Positions 7,941 through 27,574 of a stretch of DNA of 27,574 nucleotides are shown here, piece by piece. How positions within the stretch are numbered: the stretch's first letter is position 1; the number at the start of each line of letters is the position of its first letter. The notes under the pieces are model-generated. The model saw only the letters and a program-made list of their open reading frames with translations, was not told the DNA's origin and ran no database searches. A program made the translations under genes and the position numbers. The stretch is from a virus. Where the stretch lies: positions 1 to 27,574 of IMG/VR virus record IMGVR_UViG_3300018080_000507. One strand, 5' to 3'.

Positions 7941-8656
7941 TTGCGGCCCCGAGCTTCACGACGGCCCCCAACGCCGACAACGCAAGCATTGACATCACCC
8001 TGGGCGCCCTTCCGCCAAGCGCAACCCAGGTCCACATCTACAAGCGCACGGCCACCGGCTACGACAGCCTCGTCCACACGTTCACGGCCCCTGGATCCTA
8101 CAACGACGCCGGCTACAGCAAATACCAGGTGGTCTGGTATCAGGCCGTGGCCGACAACGGGCCCGCACCAACGGACTGGAGCTATCCAAGCCGGGAAATT
8201 CAAGAGCAGGTCGGCACGGGCCGGCGCCTGACAATGGGGGCCCTTATTCTTGCGGCAAAAGACCTTTTTGACAACGACCCCGACCTGCAGGTCCTGGGAT
8301 ACATTGGCCGTGAATACTTTGTCGACCCCAAGCACCTCACGAGCATGATCTATATTTTGCCCGGGGAGGAGCGCCCCGATCTTCGCTGCGCCAACAAAAT
8401 GGTCGAGAGCGAAATGGACGTGCAACTTGAAATTGTAACCACGGGCGGCGTGGGCCGCACGGCCTGGGCCAGGAACGAGGACGCGGTCAACCGCGTAATT
8501 GACCTCCTCCATTTGAACTACCAATGGGGATGCCGGGCCTATAACACGACCATCAACTGGGTCCGGCGCAACGACGAGGCCGAGGGGGACCAGCCCCAAA
8601 ACCCGGTCACGACAATTTCATTTACAGCCATCACGCAATATGCGAAATTCATATAA
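7937..8656 (+). CDS. Ig/FN3-like domain fused to a tail-terminator-like protein
   Basis: 239 residues, ATG 7937 after CCGGAGG. Residues ~1-88 look like one fibronectin-III/Ig sandwich (APSFTTAPNADNASIDITLG ... QVHIYKRT ... YQVVWYQAVADNGPAPTDWSYPS). Residues ~100-239 (LILAAKDLFDNDPDLQVLGY ... MIYILPGEE ... SEMDVQLEIVTTGGVGR ... AVNRVIDLL) have the length and strand-helix order of tail terminator proteins (lambda gpU/HK97 gp9 type) that cap the tail tube. An Ig-like decoration on the terminator end is unusual; FN3 or Ig modules on phage proteins are commonly surface-binding. Confidence 0.6.
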   Translation: MIAAPSFTTAPNADNASIDITLGALPPSATQVHIYKRTATGYDSLVHTFTAPGSYNDAGYSKYQVVWYQAVADNGPAPTDWSYPSREIQEQVGTGRRLTMGALILAAKDLFDNDPDLQVLGYIGREYFVDPKHLTSMIYILPGEERPDLRCANKMVESEMDVQLEIVTTGGVGRTAWARNEDAVNRVIDLLHLNYQWGCRAYNTTINWVRRNDEAEGDQPQNPVTTISFTAITQYAKFI

Positions 8657-13636: not shown

Positions 13637-15580
13637 ATGCCCATTGACGCCTCCCAGGCCTTCATCGACGAAAGCGGGAAATGGCATGGAGCCAATCCGG
13701 CCTACAGGATCGAGATCGATCATGGGAGCACTACATACGACGAAACGAGCCGGATTTTCAGGACAACGCCAATCGACCGACTTCTCGAAAAATGGGACAG
13801 CTTCGGCGTGGCCTTGGCCGCCCAGGTCACATTGACGGCCGCCAACCATGACCAGCGCTACAGCCCGGCAAACACCTCGAGCCCGTTTTACCCCGACACC
13901 TTGATCGGTGACACGGTCCGGATTTACTTAAAATTTTTCAAAACCCTGTATGGAACCTACGCAAGCCCCAATATTTACGCCAGCCAAAATCTCTACATGA
14001 CCGAGCCCCAAACCGAGGAAATTCTGGTTTTTACGGGCATCATAAAATCCGTGAACCAAAACAAGAACGCGGAAGCCAACCTGATCGTGCGCGACGCCGT
14101 CCAGGACCTCCTCGACAGCCGGATCGCTATAAGTAAAACATACAGCGGGGATCCGGCCACCGTGATCAAGGCCATCATCGAGGACGCGGGCCTGGCCGTC
14201 AACTTGGACGAATACGAAAATACAAAAGACAAGGTCATTTTAATCAATTGCGCCTTGGACGTAGAGGCCGGCGGAAATTTTCTCGAGGCCGTGCAGGAGG
14301 TCACAGCCGGCACAGGCCTGGCCGTTTTCACGGATGAAGAAAACAAGATCGTGATTTATTCGATCTACCCCAACTTTAACGATTTTGACGAATTCACAAG
14401 CGGAGAGGCCAACCTCCGGACATTCAGCGGCGACCACGATGACCGGGACAACTTCAACATTGCAGACATCAGCGGCGGCATCGAGGAAAGCGCGGTCCGA
14501 AACAAGATTATTTTCAACTACAAAGACCTGGCGACCGGGGAGGACGCGACCTACACACGGGAGGACGCGGCCAGCATTGCCAAATACGGCGAGCAGGCCG
14601 TGACCATTACAACAACCCTGAAACTTGGCCAATTCAGTTTTGACATCTGGCCCGCCCGCCTATTGGCCCGCTATTCGGTCCCGCGCCGAGAATACAGCGC
14701 GACAACAAGCCTAAAATACACGAGCATCTACCGCGTCGGCGAATACTTGCGCCTGACCGATCCGGCCCTGGCCGAAAGCGGCGCACTATTCCTCATGCGG
14801 AAAAAGGGCCTGGATATTGCCGGCAACAGGGCCCAGATCGAACTGCAGGACATCACCGACCTGGACGGCGTAAAATGGGGCTTTGTAGGAAGCGACATTG
14901 CCGAGGCCGACGGCAACAGGCCGTCCGGATTCATGGACCACCTGCACAACAAAGGCTTTGAAAGCGCGGTCAACCCGGGCGTGGACGATACCCCGGAGAA
15001 ATACACGGTCACGCCACCAGGGGCCGGCACATTCACCTTTGCCCGATCCGACCTGCAGGCCAGGTCCGCCATGTACAGCGCGCGCCTGCAGATTTTGAAC
15101 GCGAGCGGGGGCAAGGCCGTGCAGACCATAAACCTCCGCGGACTTATAAACCAGACCACCCTTTATTATTACATCAGCTTTTATTACCGGGGCACGGTCA
15201 CGGCCGGGAGCGCCCTGGTCCGCGTAAAGGAAGCCGGCGCGGCCGTGCGCGGCACCGTAACCATCAACGCAAGCGCCGCGGACTGGACCCGCGTGGGCGT
15301 TTCCTTTTCGGTATTCACGGCGGACACAACGCCCTACACCCTGGAGATCGAGCCAGGAAGCGGCGCCGATGACTTGGACATTTACATCGACGATATCCAG
15401 ATCGACGACCAGGTCGGGACCCCGTACCCATACCAAGTCAACTGGAAAACTTATTGTTTTGCAGGCAAGGACGCGGCCCTGGCCAACCCAGGTTTTGATC
15501 TCGATGGAAACGTAAACGGCGTCATCAATGGCCTCGACTTTTTAGAAGGCTTTGAGGAATTGCACAAGGTCGCCAGCTAG
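13637..15580 (+). CDS. Tail hub protein with C-terminal carbohydrate-binding-like domain
   Basis: 647 residues. Residues ~1-420 look like a gp27/hub-type tail-associated protein: YRIEIDHGSTTYDETSRIFR, VFTGIIKSVNQNKNAEANLI, LVDAVQ-like RDAVQDLLDSRI, and the AGTGLAVFTDEENKIVIYSI segment. Residues ~435-605 form a separate beta-sandwich (NKGFESAVN ... YTVTPPGAGTFTFARSDLQA ... INLRGLINQTTLYYYISFYY) resembling CBM/galactose-binding modules that grip cell-surface glycans. It would form the ring closing the tail tip and contact the host. Confidence 0.72.
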   Translation: MPIDASQAFIDESGKWHGANPAYRIEIDHGSTTYDETSRIFRTTPIDRLLEKWDSFGVALAAQVTLTAANHDQRYSPANTSSPFYPDTLIGDTVRIYLKFFKTLYGTYASPNIYASQNLYMTEPQTEEILVFTGIIKSVNQNKNAEANLIVRDAVQDLLDSRIAISKTYSGDPATVIKAIIEDAGLAVNLDEYENTKDKVILINCALDVEAGGNFLEAVQEVTAGTGLAVFTDEENKIVIYSIYPNFNDFDEFTSGEANLRTFSGDHDDRDNFNIADISGGIEESAVRNKIIFNYKDLATGEDATYTREDAASIAKYGEQAVTITTTLKLGQFSFDIWPARLLARYSVPRREYSATTSLKYTSIYRVGEYLRLTDPALAESGALFLMRKKGLDIAGNRAQIELQDITDLDGVKWGFVGSDIAEADGNRPSGFMDHLHNKGFESAVNPGVDDTPEKYTVTPPGAGTFTFARSDLQARSAMYSARLQILNASGGKAVQTINLRGLINQTTLYYYISFYYRGTVTAGSALVRVKEAGAAVRGTVTINASAADWTRVGVSFSVFTADTTPYTLEIEPGSGADDLDIYIDDIQIDDQVGTPYPYQVNWKTYCFAGKDAALANPGFDLDGNVNGVINGLDFLEGFEELHKVAS

Positions 15581-17667: not shown

Positions 17668-17705
17668 TTGACAAACCCTTAAAATGGGCCTATATTCTAT
17701 ATAGG
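17668..17705 (+). promoter_or_regulatory. Promoter P1 with palindromic operator
   Basis: TTGACA (17668-17673), 17-bp spacer, TATATT (17691-17696); predicted start near 17703. A perfect inverted repeat CCTATAT-TCT-ATATAGG (17689-17705) covers the -10 box and start site, an ideal position for a dimeric repressor. The same module recurs at P2. Confidence 0.85.
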
Positions 17706-17732
17706 ATGAACAAAACAAAAGGAGACAAGACG
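17704..17732 (+). promoter_or_regulatory. P1 mRNA leader (shared with P2)
   Basis: The leader begins GGATGAACAAAAC and contains the Shine-Dalgarno AAAAGGAG for ATG 17733. It is identical to the P2 leader over its first 24 nt apart from one extra A before GGAG. An AUG at position +4 (17706) is in frame with ATG 17733. The leader is complementary to the loops of the terminators at 19296 and 26791. Confidence 0.75.
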
Positions 17733-19295: not shown

Positions 19296-19344
19296 CGCCC
19301 CGGCGCCTGTTCATCCTAAACCCGGCGCCGGGGCGCCCCCTTTT
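19296..19344 (+). terminator. Terminator of the P1 operon with anti-leader loop
   Basis: CGCCCCGGCGCC (19296-19307) pairs perfectly with GGCGCCGGGGCG (19324-19335), then CCCCC TTTT. The 16-nt loop contains TGTTCATCCTA (19308-19318), an exact complement of TAGGATGAACA at the very start of the P1 and P2 mRNAs. From 19345 to 19481 I see no gene; the stretch is GC-rich with no recognisable element. Confidence 0.8.
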
Positions 19345-19523: not shown

Positions 19524-19664
19524 ATGGGACCGATGGAACCTGTGAAACCGATGGAAACGATGGAAACGATGGAAACCGCCAAGTTTTCCACATATTCACA
19601 AGTTATCCACAAAAAACCAATGGAAATCATGAAACATGTGAAACCTATGAAACCAATGGAAACC
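19524..19664 (+). other. Origin-like region: 9-bp iterons flanking DnaA boxes
   Basis: Six tandem 9-bp units of consensus RTGRAAMCN occupy 19524-19577 and five occupy 19620-19664 (for example ATGGAAACG, GTGAAACCG, ATGGAAACC). Between them lie TTTTCCACA (19584-19592), a near-box ATATTCACA (19592-19600) and a perfect DnaA box TTATCCACA (19603-19611). A/T-rich sequence (about 19665-19695) follows. This matches iteron-type replication origins that recruit host DnaA. Promoter P2 starts 40 bp downstream. Confidence 0.65.
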
Positions 19665-19704
19665 AACAAAGGCCAAAAAACTTTCAAAAAAACGACACAA
19701 CCCC

Positions 19705-19741
19705 TTGACAGACACCGAATAAAGGACTATATTCTATATAG
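19705..19741 (+). promoter_or_regulatory. Promoter P2 with operator, twin of P1
   Basis: TTGACA (19705-19710), 17-bp spacer, TATATT (19728-19733), predicted start near 19740. Inverted repeat CTATAT-TCT-ATATAG (19727-19741) covers the -10 and start. The leader GGATGAACAAAACAAAGGAG (19741-19760) follows. The spacer sequence differs from P1 while the -10/operator/leader part is conserved. Confidence 0.85.
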
Positions 19742-19769
19742 GATGAACAAAACAAAGGAGACCGAAACG

Positions 19770-19985
19770 ATGAACGCAAGCACAATCACCGAGTACAGCG
19801 CCGGCGGATTCACGGTCCACGGGGCCATGATCGGCCGCGACGGATTCCGCACCGAGGCCGAGGCCAGGGAATACGCCCGGCACATGGCCAGCCAGCCCGG
19901 CGTCGCCCCCTTCTTCGAGATTTACGCCTGGGACGCGGACGGCAACAACGAGCACATCGGCACCGAAGGCCGCGAGGAGGCCTGA
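19770..19985 (+). CDS. First gene of the P2 operon, small unknown protein
   Basis: 71 residues from ATG 19770 with AAAGGAG upstream. The in-frame AUG at 19743 near the mRNA 5' end would add MNKTKETET, nine codons as in the P1 operon. Sequence: ITEYSAGGFTVHGAMIGRDG FRTEAEAREYARHM, then FFEIYAWDADGNNEHIG; a small alpha/beta protein of the type seen in phage early regions. Not recognised. Confidence 0.72.
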   Translation: MNASTITEYSAGGFTVHGAMIGRDGFRTEAEAREYARHMASQPGVAPFFEIYAWDADGNNEHIGTEGREEA

Positions 19986-19987
19986 CG

Positions 19988-20563
19988 ATGCGCACCAACG
20001 CCGCCACCAAGCGCCGGGTCCGGGCCGAGATTTTCCGGACCCTGCGCCGGATCGAGGACGCCGGCTACAAGGTCCCGGACGCGGTCAAATTCTACGGCCG
20101 CGAAAGCCGCACCATCGCCTTTGCCCGCGGTACACAAAGCCTGCATTTCAACTACCGCCTGATGGGCAAATACACGCCCTGGGACAACGAATTGACGGTC
20201 GCCCACGAGATGGCGCACATTGAGGCCTACCGCCGGATCGCCAAGGCCCGCGAGGCCGTCACCCAGGCCAAGACCAGCACGGCCGCGAAAATGCAGAGCC
20301 TGGCCGAATACCGGCAGACCCAGCGCGCCCTCGAGCACCACAAGCCCGGATTTTGGCAGATTTTCATCGAGATCTGCGAGGCCACGGGCCTGCCTTGGGA
20401 AGCCCACAACAGCGGAAGCGCGCCCCAGGTATGGGCCCAGGTAAAGGCCAAGGCCCAGGCCCTGAAATTCAAGGCCCGCTTTCGGGCCGACCAATTCCGC
20501 CTCGAGGTCTACCAGCACGCCGCGAAATTCGCCAAGGGCGACCAGATCGCCCTGGCGTTTTGA
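19988..20563 (+). CDS. SprT-like zinc metalloprotein
   Basis: 191 residues. A zinc-protease motif HEMAH (residues 73-77, in ELTVAHEMAHIE) is followed about 40 residues later by EHHKPGFWQIF (116-126), where SprT-type proteins have the third zinc histidine and an aromatic patch. The spacing and a basic, helical N-terminus fit the SprT-like family, linked in cells to DNA-protein crosslink repair. In a phage early operon it could act on host proteins or on DNA ends. Catalysis is inferred from the motif; other HExxH families remain possible. Confidence 0.72.
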   Translation: MRTNAATKRRVRAEIFRTLRRIEDAGYKVPDAVKFYGRESRTIAFARGTQSLHFNYRLMGKYTPWDNELTVAHEMAHIEAYRRIAKAREAVTQAKTSTAAKMQSLAEYRQTQRALEHHKPGFWQIFIEICEATGLPWEAHNSGSAPQVWAQVKAKAQALKFKARFRADQFRLEVYQHAAKFAKGDQIALAF

Positions 20564-20573
20564 GGAGGACACC

Positions 20574-20855
20574 ATGAAATGGGGAGAACCGAAGCGCGAG
20601 CACAAGGCCGACGGCTGGACCTTCACCTGGGACGGCCACGGATGGTGGGGCGAAAACGACAGCATCGGCCTTGACGTTTCCGGAGGCCCGGGATGCTGGA
20701 TGGTAAGCGGGACCAAGGGAAGCACGCCCGAGGACTACGACATCGTCGAGCTTGAGGAGAACATCCCCCGCTTGAAGGACGCGTGCGAAAAGGCCCAGGA
20801 AATTGTCGATGCCCAGGAATACAACGGACCGGACGGCCCGGAAGCCTATTTTTAG
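20574..20855 (+). CDS. P2 operon gene, unknown
   Basis: 93 residues; strong AGGAGGACACC ribosome site. The Trp/Gly-rich N-terminus (GWTFTWDGHGWWGENDSIGL) and acidic helical C-terminus (IVELEENIPRLKDACEKAQE) make a small acidic protein, a frequent property of phage inhibitors that mimic DNA. No specific match. Confidence 0.68.
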   Translation: MKWGEPKREHKADGWTFTWDGHGWWGENDSIGLDVSGGPGCWMVSGTKGSTPEDYDIVELEENIPRLKDACEKAQEIVDAQEYNGPDGPEAYF

Positions 20856-20867
20856 AGGAGAATCGCC

Positions 20868-21098
20868 ATGACACCCAACCCCGGAAAAATTTTTCTTAAG
20901 CGGAAATTCAAACGCGAGCGCCAGGTCTACGTGGTCGCGCGCGCCACGGCCCAGGGCGGCCCCTGGACCGTATGGCCCGTGCCCGAAAGCGCGGGGATCC
21001 GCGCCCTTCACAGCCTGCAGGTCCTGACGGCCAGGAGCCGCGCGAACCAGGCCCAGGCCATCGCCGACAAGCACAACGCCCAGGAGGACAGGCCATGA
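20868..21098 (+). CDS. P2 operon gene, small basic protein containing FLKRK
   Basis: 76 residues, GAGGAGAATCGCC before ATG. Its start reads MTPNPGKIFLKRKFKRERQV and includes copy 5 of the dispersed motif, so here the motif is really coding. The remainder is alpha/beta (VYVVARATAQGGPWTVWPVP ... SRANQAQAIADKHNAQE), similar in layout to other small early proteins with an AxAxxxA helix at the end. Unknown. Confidence 0.68.
   Translation: MTPNPGKIFLKRKFKRERQVYVVARATAQGGPWTVWPVPESAGIRALHSLQVLTARSRANQAQAIADKHNAQEDRP
20892..20905 (+). repeat. Dispersed motif TTTCTTAARCGGAA, copy 5
   Basis: TTTCTTAAGCGGAA near the 5' end of the 20868-21098 gene. It is read as FLKRK, as in copies 1, 2 and 3; the only variable base within the core (A/G) is synonymous in that phase. 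Confidence 0.7.
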
Positions 21099-21451
21099 AG
21101 CCCCAGCCCGACCCCACGCCCCTCACCGAGTACGGCCTCGGCTTTTGCGTCCGATGCAAAACCGGCCAGGACTACCAAGCCTTTACCAACGAATTCCCCA
21201 TCGCCGTGGCCGGCCAGGACCGGACGATCCGGCTCCACCTTTGCGCGGATTGCATGGCCGACATTGCGATGGAGATTTACAAGCGCGACCTGGCCTGGGA
21301 AGCCGAGCACGGGCCCACGCCCTGGCGCAAGGCCAAGGGCAAGCGCCTGCACATCCACATCCCCGAGCCCGGCGACAGCCAGGCCGAGATCAGCGGCAAG
21401 ATTGACGGCATCCTGCGCGACGAAACCGGCAACGAGGAGGAACTGACATGA
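21095..21451 (+). CDS. P2 operon gene with two CxxC pairs
   Basis: 118 residues; ATGA overlap. FCVRCK (about residues 16-21) and LCADCM (about 49-54) form a four-cysteine zinc site; the intervening segment is strand-rich. The second half is helical, then basic (WRKAKGKRLHIHIPEP), then acidic. A zinc-ribbon or treble-clef protein of unknown role. Confidence 0.68.
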   Translation: MKPQPDPTPLTEYGLGFCVRCKTGQDYQAFTNEFPIAVAGQDRTIRLHLCADCMADIAMEIYKRDLAWEAEHGPTPWRKAKGKRLHIHIPEPGDSQAEISGKIDGILRDETGNEEELT

Positions 21452-21774
21452 ACGGGAAATGGAAGCGGGACGCCAACGGACACCACCACCTGCAGGAACG
21501 GGCCGTGATTCACATTGTCACCGAAACCGAGGTCGAGCCGCCCGAGCGCTACGAGATACGGACGGTGGGCGAAAAGCGCCTGCGCCAAGTAAGCGGCCCC
21601 TGGACCTTCCGCGCCCGCGCATCGGTTAAAAGCGGCATGGCCATCGGCCCCTGGCTTTGCCGGGAAGCGATGGGCCGCGGGGGCGCCTTCCACGAGACCA
21701 AGCGCCTGGCCAAGGCCAAGGCCCAGGCCCTGGCCCGCGAATTGATACAGGACCTCATGGAGCCCAAGCCTTGA
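21448..21774 (+). CDS. P2 operon gene, unknown
   Basis: 108 residues with ATGA overlap on the upstream side. Beta-like first half (RDANGHHHLQERAVIHIVTE TEVEPPERYEIRTV) and a C-terminal helix (ETKRLAKAKAQALARELIQD) of the same type as the 20868 and 21771 products. Basic overall. Not recognised. Confidence 0.66.
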   Translation: MNGKWKRDANGHHHLQERAVIHIVTETEVEPPERYEIRTVGEKRLRQVSGPWTFRARASVKSGMAIGPWLCREAMGRGGAFHETKRLAKAKAQALARELIQDLMEPKP

Positions 21775-22169
21775 CCAGGAAGCGATGGGCCCGGGGCGAA
21801 TGGCCGTGGGTCGTTTCCTTCGACCTGCAGGCCGGCCATTGGCACACCATAGGCCAGCACAAAATCCGGCGCATTAGGATCGAGCCCGGGCCGGACGGGA
21901 CGGACACCCCTTTTTACAACTTCGATGAAAATGGCCGGGCCTGGTTTTTGCCAGATGACCTTTACAGGACCTGGGAGGAGGCCGAGGCCGAGGTCCGGAG
22001 CCGGCAACTGCAGACCTTCGGCCGGGACACGCGAGCGGAGCCCGATCACAAAATAAGCGAAGATGTAGGGAAGAATAAGGGAAGAATAAGGGAAGCCGGC
22101 CGCGGCCGGGATCCAGGCGCCGGCCAGGCCCAGTTATTCGACCTTGACAAACCCGGAAACACCGGATAA
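21771..22169 (+). CDS. P2 operon gene, TTG start, unknown
   Basis: 132 residues from TTG 21771, which overlaps the previous TGA; GGAG lies 8 nt upstream. Sequence begins TRKRWARGEWPWVVSFDLQA with an aromatic beta part (FYNFDENGRAWFLPDDLYRT) and a basic disordered C-terminus. The -35 and -10 boxes of promoter P3 overlap its last codons. Not recognised. Confidence 0.62.
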   Translation: MTRKRWARGEWPWVVSFDLQAGHWHTIGQHKIRRIRIEPGPDGTDTPFYNFDENGRAWFLPDDLYRTWEEAEAEVRSRQLQTFGRDTRAEPDHKISEDVGKNKGRIREAGRGRDPGAGQAQLFDLDKPGNTG

Positions 22170-22179
22170 ACTCATGAAA
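22144..22179 (+). promoter_or_regulatory. Promoter P3
   Basis: TTGACA (22144-22149), 17-bp spacer, TAAACT (22167-22172); predicted start near 22179. The box extends to TTGACAAACCC, shared with P1. The leader contains CGGGTCAGGACA (22183-22194) and a CCCCG-AAC-CGGGG hairpin (22204-22216) before the HTH gene start. Confidence 0.75.
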
Positions 22180-22251
22180 ACACGGGTCAGGACAACAGAC
22201 AAACCCCGAACCGGGGAACCGCCCTGCCCGAATTCAAACCAGGAGGACAGC

Positions 22252-22494
22252 ATGCCCAAACCGAAAACCGACCCCGAGGTCCGCGGCGCCTTTTCCATTG
22301 CCACGGTCGCGCGAGCTTTGAACGTAAGCCGCACGACCGTGTGGGACTGGGCCAAGGACGGCCGGCTCGAGGCCTTCCGCTTGACCAAGAGCCAGAAAAG
22401 CCCCTATCGCATCCCCCGGAGCGCCCTGGTCCGGCACTACGGCGAGGACGTGGCCGCGCATTGCGACCGGATCGAAGCGGCACGCAAGTCATGA
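22252..22494 (+). CDS. Excisionase/MerR-type helix-turn-helix protein
   Basis: 80 residues from ATG 22252, chosen for its AGGAGG; the in-frame ATG at 22174 lies upstream of the predicted transcript start. AFSIATVARALNVSRTTVWD (residues 13-32) is a helix-turn-helix with the WAKDGRLEAFR turn and IPRSALVRHYG wing of the HTH_17/excisionase group. It should bind DNA and, being first under its own promoter, may regulate the early promoters or replication. Targets are unknown. Confidence 0.8.
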   Translation: MPKPKTDPEVRGAFSIATVARALNVSRTTVWDWAKDGRLEAFRLTKSQKSPYRIPRSALVRHYGEDVAAHCDRIEAARKS

Positions 22495-23504
22495 CCAACG
22501 GCGGGACCCCGGACCCGGGATCGATTGCCAGCGAGATCCGGGCCGACCTTGTAACCTACAAGGCCGAGAAGCGGAGGAAATGGCGGCCCAAGAGCAACGC
22601 CGCCAGCCAACTCGGCCATCCTTGCGCCCTTGAAACCGGGCGCTATTTGTACATCCGGCGCATCACGCCGGAGGAAAATCTTGCCTTGCACCCCGTGGCC
22701 AAGCAGTTTTTATTTGATGACGGCAACACCCACGAGGAAGCGGTCATCGCGGACTTGAAGGCGGCCGGCCATCAGGTCGACCGCGGCCAGGCCAGCTACA
22801 CCTGGGACGCCTACCAGATCAGCGGCAAGATTGACGGATTCATTTACACGAGCGCCGGCGCCTTCCCATTGGAGGCCAAGGCCATGAGCCCCTCCCTTTT
22901 CCGCGCCGCGGCCAAGGCCGCCATCAACGGCGTCTTGACATGGGACCGGATAAAGGCCACGCGCAACGACTGGATCGCCAAATACGCGGTCCAGCTTAAC
23001 ACCTACCTGCTGATGACCGGCCGGCCCCTTGGAATTTTCGCTTTCAAGGACAAGGAAAGCGGGGATATTGCCATTTACGGCTGGGCCCTGGACTACGACC
23101 TGGGCGAGACCGCGATCAAGCGCGCCGAAGAAATCAACGCGGCGATGGCCGGCACGGGCCCGGAACCCAAGCATTGCACGCGGCCCGACCTTTGCGGCCG
23201 ATGCGAGATCTGCCACATTTGCAAGCCGCCCTTGGTTCAATTCGGGGAAACGCGCGAGATCATGGACAACCCCGACCTCGAGGCCAAGCTCATCCGCCTT
23301 GAAGAATTGGAGCCGGCCTACAAGGAATATAAAACCTTGGACGAACAGATCAAGGCCGCGGTCCGCGGCAAAATCGGCGTCCTTGGGGATTTTGAAATTG
23401 ACGGGGCATGGAGCGAAAGCCCGGCCCAGGTCATCCCCGAGCACACGGAACCACCGCGCCGGCAATGGCGCCGGAAAATTACCAAATGGAGGAAAACAGC
23501 ATGA
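22491..23504 (+). CDS. Cas4/RecB-like PD-(D/E)XK exonuclease
   Basis: 337 residues, ATGA-coupled to the HTH gene. Nuclease motifs: His81/Glu82 (THEEAV), Asp115 (SGKIDG), Glu128-Ala-Lys130 (PLEAK) and Gln168...Tyr172 (YAVQLNTYL), the order of the RecB nuclease family. Cys45 (GHPC) and a C-terminal cluster Cys229, 235, 238, 241 and 244 could hold a 4Fe-4S cluster as in Cas4 and AddB. It likely resects phage DNA ends and works with the next protein as a two-component recombination system. Confidence 0.78.
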   Translation: MTNGGTPDPGSIASEIRADLVTYKAEKRRKWRPKSNAASQLGHPCALETGRYLYIRRITPEENLALHPVAKQFLFDDGNTHEEAVIADLKAAGHQVDRGQASYTWDAYQISGKIDGFIYTSAGAFPLEAKAMSPSLFRAAAKAAINGVLTWDRIKATRNDWIAKYAVQLNTYLLMTGRPLGIFAFKDKESGDIAIYGWALDYDLGETAIKRAEEINAAMAGTGPEPKHCTRPDLCGRCEICHICKPPLVQFGETREIMDNPDLEAKLIRLEELEPAYKEYKTLDEQIKAAVRGKIGVLGDFEIDGAWSESPAQVIPEHTEPPRRQWRRKITKWRKTA

Positions 23505-24583
23505 ACTACGACGACGATCCGGCCATCGTGCCGGTCAACGAAAAAGAAAACATTGTCCAGGCGGGCAACATCGCCGAAGCCCAACTCGTGCCGGCCGGGC
23601 CTTTGCAGACCCAGGCCAGCCTGCAGGCCTTTGACGAATACATGGCCGTCGTAAAGCACCGGGCAGAAAAGGTCATGGAATTGAGGGAATACCTTATTTC
23701 AAAAACCACGCACCTGGACTGGGACAACCTCGACGGAAAACCCTACTTGAACATTGCCGGCGCCAACAAGGCCATGAAGGTCGGCATCATCAACATGGAC
23801 GGCCTGCGCGGGGGCAAGGACTGGAGCGAGGACGAAAAACGGGAGCGCTACTACTATTACAAATACATCGCCCGCTTTTTCATTCCCAACCTCGGCGACA
23901 GCTTGTGGGAAATGGGCCGGTGTTCACAGCGGGATTTACTTTTCGGAACCCACAAGGTCCCCAAGCTCGGCAAGGACGGCAAGCCCGAGACCTACAAGGA
24001 CAGCGGAAAAGTTATCATGGTCCGCGCCTTCAAACCGGCCAGCGAGGTCGACGAAGGCAACATCGACAAGAGCGCCATGACCAACCTGCGCGTCCGCGGC
24101 GTGCGCGCAATTTCAGGCCTTTCCAGCGTGACCTGGGAAGAATTGGAGCGCTTGGCCGGAATTACCCCGGACATGATCGAGGGCGGCACCAACTACAGCG
24201 ACAGCGCCGGCGGGGAGGACGCGGTCACCAAGGCCGAGATGCGCCAGCTTTTCAACTTGCTCGAGAAACACAAGGTCGACGCCAAAGAATTTCAAGCCAA
24301 ATTCGGGATCGGCATGATCAAGGAACTCAAGCAGAAGGACTTGGGCAAGGCCAAGGTCTGGATCAGCAAGCAGGGCCAGACCGCGACAACGGCCAGGGCC
24401 ACCGACAACAGCATCATCGCGCCGGCCGCGGCCAAGCGCCTGCGCGAGGGCATGGCCGCCGTGGGCATCAGCGACGAAACCTACAAGAAGGAAATCGGCG
24501 CCCTGCCCGAGGAGACCAAGAAGGTCGACTTTGCCCGCGCCGAGGCCTTCATCAACAAGATCGCGGACGGGGGCGCGAATTGA
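23501..24583 (+). CDS. Putative ssDNA-annealing/recombination protein
   Basis: 360 residues; TGGAGGAAAACAGC precedes ATG. Key stretch HLDWDNLDGKPYLNIAGANK (71-90), then RYYYYKYIARFFIP and LWEMGRCSQRDLLFG (136-149), then AMTNLRVRGVRAISGL; the C-terminal ~130 residues are helical with KAEMRQLFNLLEKHKVDAKE FQAKFG, like C-terminal tails of phage recombinases that bind partners. Annealing function is inferred from position behind a RecB-like exonuclease; I do not place it firmly in RecT, Erf, Rad52 or Sak4 families. Confidence 0.5.
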   Translation: MNYDDDPAIVPVNEKENIVQAGNIAEAQLVPAGPLQTQASLQAFDEYMAVVKHRAEKVMELREYLISKTTHLDWDNLDGKPYLNIAGANKAMKVGIINMDGLRGGKDWSEDEKRERYYYYKYIARFFIPNLGDSLWEMGRCSQRDLLFGTHKVPKLGKDGKPETYKDSGKVIMVRAFKPASEVDEGNIDKSAMTNLRVRGVRAISGLSSVTWEELERLAGITPDMIEGGTNYSDSAGGEDAVTKAEMRQLFNLLEKHKVDAKEFQAKFGIGMIKELKQKDLGKAKVWISKQGQTATTARATDNSIIAPAAAKRLREGMAAVGISDETYKKEIGALPEETKKVDFARAEAFINKIADGGAN

Positions 24584-24984
24584 ACGCGCCTGCGGGGGAA
24601 TGCCAGATCCTTGTGCTTCGGTACGGGCCCTGGCGCTTGATGGTAAACGAGGACGGGGCGTGCTGGCTTGAGCCGCCCCGGGACCAGCGCATCGGCGCCG
24701 GGACCTTGCCCACGCACGAGGAATTGATCGAGGCCATCAACGCCTGGACATACAGCAAGGCGGCCGCGGACTTGCGCGACCTCGGGATCGACTACGAAGC
24801 CGCGGTCCACCGTTTCAAGATCGGATGCAAGGCCATGAGCGAAAAAGCCCACGGCCAGCGCCGGAAGCGCACGGGCGGGATCGTAAACCGCGTCATTCAT
24901 TGGTGGCGGGAGCGGCGCCTGGAGGCCCGGACCCTGGCCCAGGTCCGCGAGATTTTACGCAAGGACCAGGAGGCCAGGCGATGA
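24580..24984 (+). CDS. Accessory gene, TTG start, unknown
   Basis: 134 residues if it starts at TTG 24580 overlapping the previous TGA; the ribosome site (GGGGGCG) is weak and an internal ATG at 24640 is an alternative. QILVLRYGPWRLMVNEDGAC is strand-like; the rest is helical and very basic near the end (HGQRRKRTGGIVNRVIHWWR). Possibly nucleic-acid binding. Not recognised. Confidence 0.58.
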   Translation: MNAPAGECQILVLRYGPWRLMVNEDGACWLEPPRDQRIGAGTLPTHEELIEAINAWTYSKAAADLRDLGIDYEAAVHRFKIGCKAMSEKAHGQRRKRTGGIVNRVIHWWRERRLEARTLAQVREILRKDQEARR

Positions 24985-25199
24985 GCCCGCGGCCGGGATG
25001 GACCGTGGAGACATTCAACGAACGATGCCCGCCAGGGACCCGCGTCCAGGTCCTGCACGCCAACGGCGTCCGGATCCGCACGCGGACGGTCGGCCGGGCA
25101 TGGGCCCTGGGCGACGGCACCCCGGTCGTCCAGGTAAAGCGGGCCGCGCATGACATTTACCGCCTGGACCACGTCGAGCCCGAGGAGGAAAGCCCATGA
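24981..25199 (+). CDS. Accessory gene, small beta protein, unknown
   Basis: 72 residues; GGAGGCCAGGCG precedes the ATG. VETFNERCPPGTRVQVLHAN GVRIRTRTVGRAW and TPVVQVKRAAHDIYRLDHVE suggest a small SH3-like barrel. ATGA overlaps on both sides. Not recognised. Confidence 0.62.
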   Translation: MSPRPGWTVETFNERCPPGTRVQVLHANGVRIRTRTVGRAWALGDGTPVVQVKRAAHDIYRLDHVEPEEESP

Positions 25200-25690
25200 C
25201 CAAAACCGAAAAGAAGCGCATGCCAGAGTACACCGCACGACAGCGCGCGATCTACAAGGCCGCGATCCACGCCATACACTGGATCCAGGAGGACGCCGGG
25301 CCCGCCGGCCGGGCCCTCGGCACCAAGGCCAAGCCGATCAAGCGTGCCCGCGTCCTGCAGGTAATACAGCGCCTGGCCGGCGCCTACGGGGGCCCCTACG
25401 CCAAGCCCGTCCTGCCGGCGGACTTCAAGGACCTACACGACCGCGACATGCGCAAGGCCATCAGCACGGGCCGGAAGCACGGGGAATGGCCGTGCCTGCT
25501 TTCCAACCCCGGAGGCAGGGCCAAGGGCGGCTACTACATGGCCGCGGGCCCGGAGGAAATACGGGAGGCCGCGGACAACTTGAGGAGCTACCTGATCGAC
25601 CAGGCCTGGAACCTTCGCGGCCTGCGGGCCAGCGAGGCCCACGCGCGCGGCATGCCCCTATTTCCCGCCTACGAGGAGCCCCAACCATGA
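25196..25690 (+). CDS. Accessory gene, basic protein, unknown
   Basis: 164 residues with GAGGAGGAAAGCCC upstream. Mostly helical and basic in the first half (TARQRAIYKAAIHAIHWIQE, KPIKRARVLQVIQRL); a second helical domain contains DMRKAISTGRKHGEWPCLLS NPGGRAKGGYYMA, which has the look of a winged-helix hairpin, and EEIREAADNLRSYL. May bind DNA. No family assigned. Confidence 0.6.
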   Translation: MTKTEKKRMPEYTARQRAIYKAAIHAIHWIQEDAGPAGRALGTKAKPIKRARVLQVIQRLAGAYGGPYAKPVLPADFKDLHDRDMRKAISTGRKHGEWPCLLSNPGGRAKGGYYMAAGPEEIREAADNLRSYLIDQAWNLRGLRASEAHARGMPLFPAYEEPQP

Positions 25691-26169
25691 CCGGCCAGGG
25701 AAACCAGGCAAACTGGCGCTGGGAAACCGTCACGGCCTGGGACGTGCCAACCGGGCCCGCGAAATACCGGGCCGAATACCGCCGGCCGTGGACCAGGGCG
25801 GAAGCCCAGCGCCTGGTGCTTGGGATTCGGGCCTGGGACCGCGGGGAACCGGCACCGCCGGCGGCCGCCGAAAGCCCAGGGCCCGCCTGCGACGCCCGGG
25901 CCATCGACATGGCCCTGCGACTTCGCGGCCTTTGCCTTGAATACGAAACCCAGGCCAAGGACCTGGCGGACCAGATCCAAAAGGCCGTCGGCGACCTTGG
26001 AGAAAAGGCCCTGGCCGCCCTGGCTTGTTTCGCCTTGAATTACCACAAGAACACGGGTCGATGGCCGAGCCCGGCCGTCTACAGGGCCGCACGCAAGCAC
26101 CTGGAGAAACTGGCCGGCCACGGGACCAAGACCGAGCCCCCGGACAACAAGCGCGAGATCCCGCATTGA
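25687..26169 (+). CDS. Accessory gene, unknown
   Basis: 160 residues, ATGA overlap, GAGGAG upstream. The N-terminal segment is aromatic (NWRWETVTAWDVPTGPAKYR), then a Pro/Ala linker, then helices (AIDMALRLRGLCLEYETQAK DLADQIQKAVGDLGEKALAA) and YHKNTGRWPSPAVYRAARKH. Not recognised. Confidence 0.6.
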   Translation: MTGQGNQANWRWETVTAWDVPTGPAKYRAEYRRPWTRAEAQRLVLGIRAWDRGEPAPPAAAESPGPACDARAIDMALRLRGLCLEYETQAKDLADQIQKAVGDLGEKALAALACFALNYHKNTGRWPSPAVYRAARKHLEKLAGHGTKTEPPDNKREIPH

Positions 26170-26435
26170 ATCCTAAGCCAGGCCAGATCGCGGTCCGGGA
26201 CGGCGTGAATTTTGGCCGCCCCTACTTGAAGGCCAGCGGCGTGCCGACCTGGACCATCGCCGACCAATTCCGTGGCGGGGACAGCGTGGCCACCATTGCC
26301 CGATGGTTTGGAATTCCGCGGGCCCAGGTCGAGATCGCCCTGCGGTACGAATTGGAAACCCCGGCCCGAAAACGAAAAATGGAGGACAGACATGCCAGAG
26401 ACCAACGACCATCCAAGCGGAAAAAAGTGCGGTAA
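26166..26435 (+). CDS. DUF433-like small HTH protein, TTG start
   Basis: 89 residues from TTG 26166 overlapping the previous TGA. FGRPYLKASGVPTWTIADQF RGGDSVATIARWFGIPRAQV EIALRYE follows the DUF433 pattern, a small winged-HTH family often found as antitoxins; no toxin gene is seen beside it. It overlaps the next gene by 44 bp, more than any other pair here, so its C-terminal end (basic, KRKKVR) may be under double use. Confidence 0.58.
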   Translation: MNPKPGQIAVRDGVNFGRPYLKASGVPTWTIADQFRGGDSVATIARWFGIPRAQVEIALRYELETPARKRKMEDRHARDQRPSKRKKVR

Positions 26436-26670
26436 TTGCGGACATTCGCACCTGGTCCACGGAACCAGGCCCGCGGCCAATGAGCCCAACAACCCCACGG
26501 ATGGCCCAATATTGGAATGCCGGGCCCGACCGCCAAAATGCCTTGGGCAAATAGACCCCAACACCAAATGGGCCGAGCCTTTCACCGCGATCTGGCCCAC
26601 GGTACGCGTGCGCACCCGCGCCTGCGGCCAATGTTGGGATCCGACAGCCCGGGCAGAAAAAAGGACTTGA
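26392..26670 (+). CDS. Small cysteine-rich protein, last gene of the P2/P3 operon
   Basis: 92 residues; ATGGAGGACAGAC precedes ATG. KKCGNCGHSHLVHG, CRARPPKC and CGQCWDP give six cysteines plus histidines, enough for one or two zinc sites. Its TGA lies within the -35 region of P4. Unknown role, possibly nucleic-acid binding. Confidence 0.65.
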   Translation: MPETNDHPSGKKCGNCGHSHLVHGTRPAANEPNNPTDGPILECRARPPKCLGQIDPNTKWAEPFTAIWPTVRVRTRACGQCWDPTARAEKRT

Positions 26671-26702
26671 CTGGGCAGGCACGCCCGCCCATACTACGAA
26701 AA
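26667..26702 (+). promoter_or_regulatory. Promoter P4
   Basis: TTGACT (26667-26672), 17-bp spacer, CATACT (26690-26695); predicted start near 26702. The first transcribed bases resemble those of P3 (GAAAACA then GGTCAGGACAA). No ribosome site or credible gene follows before the terminator at 26791-26872. Confidence 0.6.
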
Positions 26703-26872
26703 CATGGTCAGGACAAACCAGAGCAACCCAACCTTTCGGCAAGCGCCGCCGTCTCATGTCCTGACCCGGGGGCGCACCATTGCCGGAAACGCGGCCCCGG
26801 GACCGGAACGAAGGAGCGCCATCGGCCTCCTTTGTTTTGTTCATCCAACCCGGTCCCGGGCCGCCTTTTTTT
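26702..26872 (+). ncRNA. Predicted regulatory RNA with antisense to the early leaders
   Basis: About 170 nt from P4 to an intrinsic terminator. A 5' hairpin pairs GGTCAGGACA (26706-26715) with TGTCCTGACC (26757-26766). Bases 26757-26768 are also a 12-nt exact complement of the P3 leader (22183-22194). Bases 26827-26846, in the terminator loop, are a 20-nt exact complement of the P2 leader (19741-19760), including its Shine-Dalgarno, and match the P1 leader with one bulged A. An inner hairpin AAGGAG/CTCCTT (26811-26832) could hide the anti-SD part until pairing starts at GTTCATCC. The idea that it blocks early translation or causes early termination is inference. It could also be an attenuated leader of the initiator gene downstream. 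Confidence 0.6.
26791..26872 (+). terminator. Terminator of the P4 RNA, large anti-leader loop
   Basis: GCGGCCC-C-GGGACCGG (26791-26806) pairs with CCGGTCCCGGGCCGC (26850-26864): 15 bp with a single bulged C, followed by seven T (26866-26872). The 43-nt loop is unusually long and contains the antisense segment. It also ends readthrough from the P2/P3 operon. Confidence 0.85.
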
Positions 26873-26902
26873 CCGGACCTGGCAACGGAGGAGCGGCGGA
26901 AA

Positions 26903-27574
26903 TTGTACTCGCAGATTGAAACGACCTTGTGGGGCGAGACCTGGTGGCAGGAAACTAGCCAGGGCGCAAAATTCCTTTACTTGTATCTTCGGACCAACGA
27001 CCACCGGCACCTGTCCGGCTTGTACGAGATCACCGACCGGACAGCCCGCTTTGAGACCGACATGGAGGCCGTGGCCTACGAGAGAGCCCTGGCCGAGCTT
27101 GTAGCCCTGGGCCAGGTAAAGCGGGACGGGGCCCTGGTATGGATCGTCGAGGACTTGAAGCGCCGGCCGGAAGCCACCCTTTCACCCAAAATCGTCCGGG
27201 CCGTGGCCAAACAGGTCGAGCGGCACCGTGGGAGCCCCCTCGCGGCCGAATTGTTGCGGAAATATTCAAAAAGGTTAAAGGGTATCCATACCCTACCGAT
27301 AACCCATGGTAAGGGTAAGGATACCGTAGGGATACCGTCCATTGATGATGAAGATGAAGGAATAATTAAGAAAGTAAAACCAATACAATCATCAATGAAC
27401 CCTACCGCTACCCCTTCGATACCCTATCCAAACCCTACGGAAACCGGCGACGAATTCCCGGCCCTTGACGGGCCCTGGGCCGGCATACCGGCCTGGATGG
27501 TCAGCACCAACCCCGAGGCCGAGCCCGGGGCCTTGCAAAAGGCTTTTCCCAGGTACAACTACACCGCCCCCAGC
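26903..27574 (+). CDS. Replication initiator, O-like (3' partial)
   Basis: Open from TTG 26903 to the window edge (224 codons); GGAGGAG (26887-26893) supports this start, and the frame is open upstream without an ATG. The first ~115 residues look like the winged-helix domain of phage replisome organisers (LYSQIETTLWGETWWQETSQ GAKFLYLYL, HLSGLYEITDRTARFE, ALAELVALGQVKRDGALVWI VED). A low-GC linker full of repeats follows (27280-27440), as in lambda O where the origin lies inside the gene. The C-terminal part continues outside the window. It should bind origin repeats and load the helicase. Confidence 0.68.
   Translation, partial: MYSQIETTLWGETWWQETSQGAKFLYLYLRTNDHRHLSGLYEITDRTARFETDMEAVAYERALAELVALGQVKRDGALVWIVEDLKRRPEATLSPKIVRAVAKQVERHRGSPLAAELLRKYSKRLKGIHTLPITHGKGKDTVGIPSIDDEDEGIIKKVKPIQSSMNPTATPSIPYPNPTETGDEFPALDGPWAGIPAWMVSTNPEAEPGALQKAFPRYNYTAPS
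27280..27440 (+). repeat. Repeat-rich, A/T-rich segment inside the initiator gene (candidate origin)
   Basis: Contains palindrome GGGTATCCATACCC (27280-27293), direct repeats GGATACCGT (27319-27327 and 27330-27338), and ACCCTA words at 27290, 27399, 27421 and 27432, around an A/T-rich stretch (27341-27395). The local base composition departs strongly from the rest of the window. Confidence 0.55.

Follow-up and report, generated by a model that had tools for sequence, protein, structure and literature searches.

A predicted antisense RNA in a phage genome fragment with complementarity to the 5' leaders of two early operons

The window analysed here is the whole of IMG/VR record IMGVR_UViG_3300018080_000507 (virus, positions 1-27,574; 27,574 bases). 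Its 5' edge lies inside the major-capsid gene (phrog_29) and its 3' edge inside a replication gene, so the record represents a fragment of a genome. Promoters P1, P2 and P3 precede early operons, while promoter P4, the weakest of the four by promoter-like score, stands before a short unit that closes with the intrinsic terminator T4 and is followed by the replication gene rep, whose product has the N-terminus of a DnaD-like helicase loader/initiator (Table 1). Neither an integrase nor a repressor was recognised among those proteins that were searched, the genome being incomplete. The -10 regions of P1 and P2 (17690-17705 and 19727-19742) form a perfect inverted repeat, CTATAT-TCT-ATATAG, that may be an operator. 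Between the terminator-like hairpin T1 and P2 (19511-19690) lies a probable replication origin with 9-bp-spaced GATGGAAAC-like repeats and the DnaA-box-like sequences TTATCCACA (19603-19611) and TTTTCCACA (19584-19592), 7 kb away from the rep gene. The stretch 22252-24583 carries an HTH_17 excisionase-like gene, then a Cas4-domain exonuclease gene and then a conserved partner gene, possibly for single-strand annealing; in distant relatives the partner gene stands before Cas4, whereas in the window it stands after it.

Table 1. Coordinates of the promoters, leaders, hairpins and antisense segments considered in the text; promoters are given as hexamers with spacer length and score
Feature	Position	Strand	Remarks
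P1 promoter	17668..17696	+	TTGACA-17-TATATT, 11/12
P1 mRNA leader AGGATGAACAAAACAAAAGGAGACAAGACG	17703..17732	+	antisense target including SD; first gene ATG 17733
T1, terminator-like hairpin of the P1 operon	19297..19333	+	loop TGTTCATCCTAAACCC from 19308
P2 promoter	19705..19733	+	TTGACA-17-TATATT, 11/12
P2 mRNA leader	19740..19769	+	19741-19760 antisense target; first gene ATG 19770
P3 promoter	22144..22172	+	TTGACA-17-TAAACT, 10/12
P3 leader segment complementary to H1 loop	22183..22200	+	shares GGTCAGGACA with sRNA 5' end
Promoter P4 of the RNA unit	26667..26695	+	TTGACT-17-CATACT, 9/12
Predicted antisense RNA	26702..26872	+	~171 nt; also likely 3' end of P2/P3 mRNAs
GGTCAGGACA in the 5' end of the antisense RNA	26706..26715	+	complementary to own H1 loop; identical to P3 leader core
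Hairpin H1	26734..26788	+	loop segment 26757-26768 (TGTCCTGACCCG) antisense to P3
Hairpin H2, intrinsic terminator T4	26790..26872	+	GC-rich outer stem, then seven T
Antisense to P1/P2 leaders in T4 loop	26827..26846	+	20 nt; TTCATCC end exposed (predicted fold)
Replication gene rep	26903..27574	+	TTG start; cut by window end

A first-pass annotation of this DNA had described the stretch from promoter P4 to T4 as a complete promoter-to-terminator unit that holds no credible gene. We come to the same description, and all coordinates given there were correct on recheck. The predicted promoter and intrinsic terminator are those expected of a trans-acting antisense sRNA, and the RNA is predicted to fold into two main hairpins, H1 and H2, at -84.7 kcal/mol (z -5.6). 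The initial transcribed sequences of promoters P3 and P4 are alike. An ORF of 71 aa (26704-26919) was rejected as a gene, as it has no SD and its GC3 of 0.61 is the lowest among the frames compared (others 0.65-0.90); it starts about 2 bases past the inferred RNA start, spans T4 and overlaps the rep start, and could disrupt the terminator if it were translated leaderless. A minus-strand ORF (26173-26844), which has no promoter and overlaps plus-strand genes, was rejected as well.

Of all exact inverted matches in the 27.6-kb window, the longest joins the P2 leader (19741-19760) to the T4 loop and is perfect over 20 nt (25 nt at 96%). The joint second-longest, of 16 nt, joins the P1 leader (17704-17719) to 26831-26846 and extends to 20 nt with one bulge. 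Both fall on the first bases of the respective mRNAs, and the longest inverted match anywhere in 60 whole-window dinucleotide shuffles was 13-19 nt. Complements of 16 and 20 nt to the P1 and P2 leaders were reached by none of 5000 shuffled sRNAs. The pairing spans about +2 of the mRNA through the Shine-Dalgarno sequence in both cases, so that the two matches proposed in the first-pass annotation, and its statement that they cover the start region and SD of the P1/P2 mRNAs, hold up. Sequence resembling the leader (at most 3 mismatches) occurs in the window only at P1, P2 and in the T4 loop, against 0.01 expected. The 30-nt block common to P1 and P2 takes in the -10 region as well as the start, but the T4 complement ends at about +2; an end at the inferred transcript start is what pairing between RNAs would produce, and not what a copied DNA site would.

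The predicted structure of H2 is compatible with such pairing. Its outer GC stem encloses an inner helix where CTCCTT is covered by AAGGAG, which mimics the target SD, while TTCATC is predicted to be unpaired (p 0.9-1.0). The inner hairpin sequesters half of the T4 antisense, and 15 kcal/mol would be spent on opening the full 20 nt. As cofolding does not allow a loop to pair while its stem stays closed, we used opening energies; the net interaction energy is then -13.9 kcal/mol for the 20 nt of P2, -12.8 (P2) and -12.4 kcal/mol (P1) for a 10-bp toehold, and -10 to -12.4 kcal/mol for P1 depending on the segment. The P1 and P2 mRNA 5' ends are themselves predicted to be unstructured over their first 20 nt. 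Raw long-duplex energies computed for the entire sRNA against gene starts were uninformative in this GC-rich genome. A loop-level ranking was used instead, and it puts the P2 and P1 leaders in the top two places among 5506 windows as targets of the H2 loop.

The third target is less clear. The H1 loop segment TGTCCTGACCCG is a perfect 12-nt complement of 22183-22194 in the P3 leader (16/18 when extended), with a net energy including opening of -11.7 kcal/mol over 18 nt; 0 of 5000 shuffles reach this length when the first 25 nt of the transcript are taken as the target, and 9 of 5000 do so when the whole leader is. By duplex energy, however, the P3 pairing is only 50th among the 5506 windows and thus not unique, and some 50 nt separate its target from the downstream P3 SD (22241-22246), which is not covered. 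The earlier proposal of antisense to the leaders of all three early transcripts therefore stands for P1 and P2 and in a weaker form for P3. Beside its 12-nt match to P3, the H1 loop matches the 5' end of the antisense RNA itself over 10 nt. As GGTCAGGACA is common to the P3 leader and the sRNA 5' end, the H1 loop is antisense to a leader class (P3, P4) to which the RNA itself belongs.

Leader antisense of at least 9 nt is present at one other place in the window. The T1 loop contains TGTTCATCCTA (19308-19318), which is antisense to the P1/P2 mRNA 5' ends (0/5000 shuffles). The 3' halves of T1 and T4 look paralogous, so T1 is not wholly independent evidence, and its T-run is short (four T), which makes its efficiency as a terminator uncertain. 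Between P2 and T4 the plus strand yielded no other strong terminator; long P2/P3 mRNAs therefore probably end at T4. Judged by sequence, P2 mRNAs ending there would probably carry at their 3' end an antisense to their own leader, a possible feedback in cis. The first-pass annotation mentions none of three features: the antisense in the T1 loop, the self-complementarity of the RNA's 5' end and the probable ending of P2 mRNAs at T4.

Among 91 sequences (877 kb), a leader with an SD and its antisense in a terminator loop is strong only in the window: a scan for SD-proximal leaders with a complement in a terminator loop returned the two pairs of the window and one weak case of 14 nt. L023, a distant phage that has the Cas4 and rep families of the window, carries a 21-nt inverted match (8263-8283 / 14319-14339); one side lies just ahead of an SD and the other in the loop of an intergenic hairpin that a T-run follows, possibly the same architecture in unrelated sequence. 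We rejected it as an equivalent case, as the site on the leader side may be part of a coding sequence and the general scan did not pick the pair up. Another sequence (L018) has a 23-nt perfect inverted repeat (14843-14865 / 15227-15249) whose two copies immediately precede the SDs of consecutive genes; an invertible segment or a long-range RNA hairpin could underlie it.

Relatives were sought in viral contigs and genomes with the annealing-protein-like product, the Cas4-like protein (alone and as an alignment), the MCP and the SprT-like gene product as protein queries, and with scans for the three leader patterns. These returned only distant Cas4 relatives (26-41% identity), which do not share the early region of the window, and chance 16-mers; a search of a phage collection with 19600-27574 gave no similar DNA. 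The records closest to the window may have been left out of these searches, so the lack of relatives is not evidence of rarity. None of them was a usable relative for comparing leaders with loops, and the reading draws on a single genome.

The best reading of the unit is a trans-acting antisense RNA directed against the P1 and P2 leaders, and we give a probability of roughly 60% to its repressing translation of these two early operons. This reading is favoured because the complement ends at the inferred mRNA 5' end and sits in a terminator loop, because its targets are predicted to be unstructured and because T1 repeats the pattern. The T4 hairpin would present UUCAUCC as a largely single-stranded toehold for the unstructured first nucleotides of the P1/P2 mRNAs (GGAUGAA); from there, as we infer from the geometry of H2, the duplex would invade up to the SD and block ribosome binding, possibly becoming exposed to a double-strand-specific RNase. 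The H1 loop could pair with the P3 mRNA 5' end and, over a shorter stretch, with that of the RNA itself. Promoter P4 would supply the RNA, with P2/P3 transcripts probably contributing more of it as their 3' ends, and T1 of the P1 operon carries a shorter version of the P1/P2 antisense. The net effect might be a delayed negative feedback, in which early transcripts and sRNA accumulate and early translation is turned off. The earlier suggestion that one trans-acting RNA could shut off or time the whole early programme is thus supported in part: an action on P1 and P2 is the best reading, while an action on P3, where the match is weaker and off the SD, and control of the programme as a whole are more doubtful. 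Considerably more tentative is an RNA-only shut-off of early expression, in which the terminator loops of early units are antisense to early 5' ends, one sRNA covers both leader classes (P1/P2, and P3/P4 including itself), and finishing early transcription would silence early translation with no protein repressor.

The presence of leader antisense in both T1 and T4 also fits a feedback through 3'-UTRs, in which the functional objects are the terminator ends of the early mRNAs and not a dedicated sRNA. The P1 mRNA would then end in T1 and the P2 (and P3) mRNA in T4, as the lack of a strong terminator found from P2 to T4 allows, and the P1/P2 messages would limit their own translation as a circle or via a released 3' fragment. 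There are precedents: in icaR the 3' end of the mRNA pairs with the SD region of the same gene (PMC3868564), and OppZ and CarZ are 3'-UTR-derived sRNAs that act back on their own operon (PMC7398697). These are cellular genes with one operon each, whereas in the window the terminator-loop antisense is common to separate early phage operons. We consider feedback through 3'-UTRs unlikely as the whole explanation, since a separate promoter-like site with an initial transcribed sequence like that of P3 lies directly upstream of the RNA, H1 with its P3 antisense would be superfluous, and the P2 mRNA would have to reach about 7 kb. It is not exclusive of the trans-acting antisense RNA and is partly merged into it above.

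Less probable still is that the unit is an attenuator of rep. The rep SD (GGAGGAG, 26887-26893) starts about 15 nt past the T4 T-run and no promoter-like site was found between T4 and the rep start, so rep expression probably needs read-through of T4. Promoter P4 would then transcribe a leader, read-through would set the level of Rep, and the P1/P2 leader RNA or another factor acting on the loop would modulate termination; the phage P4 CI and IsrK RNAs occupy comparable leader positions (PMC4825925). However, termination should still occur while the leaders are paired, since the bases involved are confined to the loop and inner helix and both the outer GC stem and the T-run are left untouched. 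An attenuator also leaves unexplained both the match exactly from mRNA start to SD of P1/P2 and the antisense in T1. A cause at the level of DNA, either a regulator-binding site copied in inverted orientation or what remains of a minus-strand promoter duplication, has in its favour the promoter/leader block shared by P1 and P2 and the partly palindromic nature of GTCAGGAC, as operators can be, yet we think it very improbable given that the copied block ends at the transcript start, that no minus-strand promoter was found there and that both inverted copies sit in terminator loops.

The trans-acting antisense RNA would act in a way familiar from other phages. C4 of phages P1 and P7 and sar of P22 pair around the ribosome-binding site of a phage mRNA and block its translation, and the complementary segments of C4 are thought to lie in loops (PMC12197685). 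Likewise, the predicted folds place in loops the segments of the window's RNA that are complementary to the ribosome-binding sites of phage mRNAs. C4 and sar each act on one antirepressor mRNA, whereas this RNA would act on two, possibly three, early operons; neither the P1 nor the P2 operon begins with a gene that could be convincingly matched to a family, and no antirepressor was recognised. CI of phage P4, a short RNA that is not translated, lies ahead of replication genes, and one of its segments is complementary both to the upstream part of its leader (seqA) and to other leader sequence (PMC4825925). The window's RNA similarly precedes a replication gene and complements its own upstream leader and other leaders: a seqA-like site was found (26706-26715 versus 26757-26766), and no matching downstream (seqC) site was found in the window. 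CI is processed from a transcript under its control and causes premature termination; here, in contrast, a separate promoter and terminator are predicted and the main targets are distant operons with the SD covered. The RNA has its own promoter-like site, yet P2/P3 transcription across the unit is also expected. Coverage of the SD at P1 and P2 points to a translation block of the C4/sar type rather than to premature termination of the phage P4 type. IsrK of Gifsy-1 combines a promoter, a short RNA ending at a terminator and read-through into downstream phage genes, and its short form pairs in trans (PMC4825925). The same elements, read-through and trans pairing included, are predicted for the window's unit; however, IsrK activates translation of its own read-through mRNA, while this RNA is predicted to repress other operons.

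By our analysis the RNA would work like C4/sar and share layout with phage P4 CI and IsrK, and we do not file it as a member of these families because an Rfam search gave nothing above threshold (for C4, no hit reached the gathering score, and none appeared in 26600-26950 even with E allowed up to 10) and the IsrK covariance model gave no match. It resembles the RNA control devices known from phages P4 and P1 but has a sequence and layout of its own. If the reading is true, this phage times its early programme by one RNA that recognises the shared 5' leaders of separate operons, with terminator loops serving as the antisense, and RNA-based control in phages extends beyond the few P4, P1 and P22 models. 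A leader and a terminator loop within one genome make a simple architecture that can be searched for across phage genomes.
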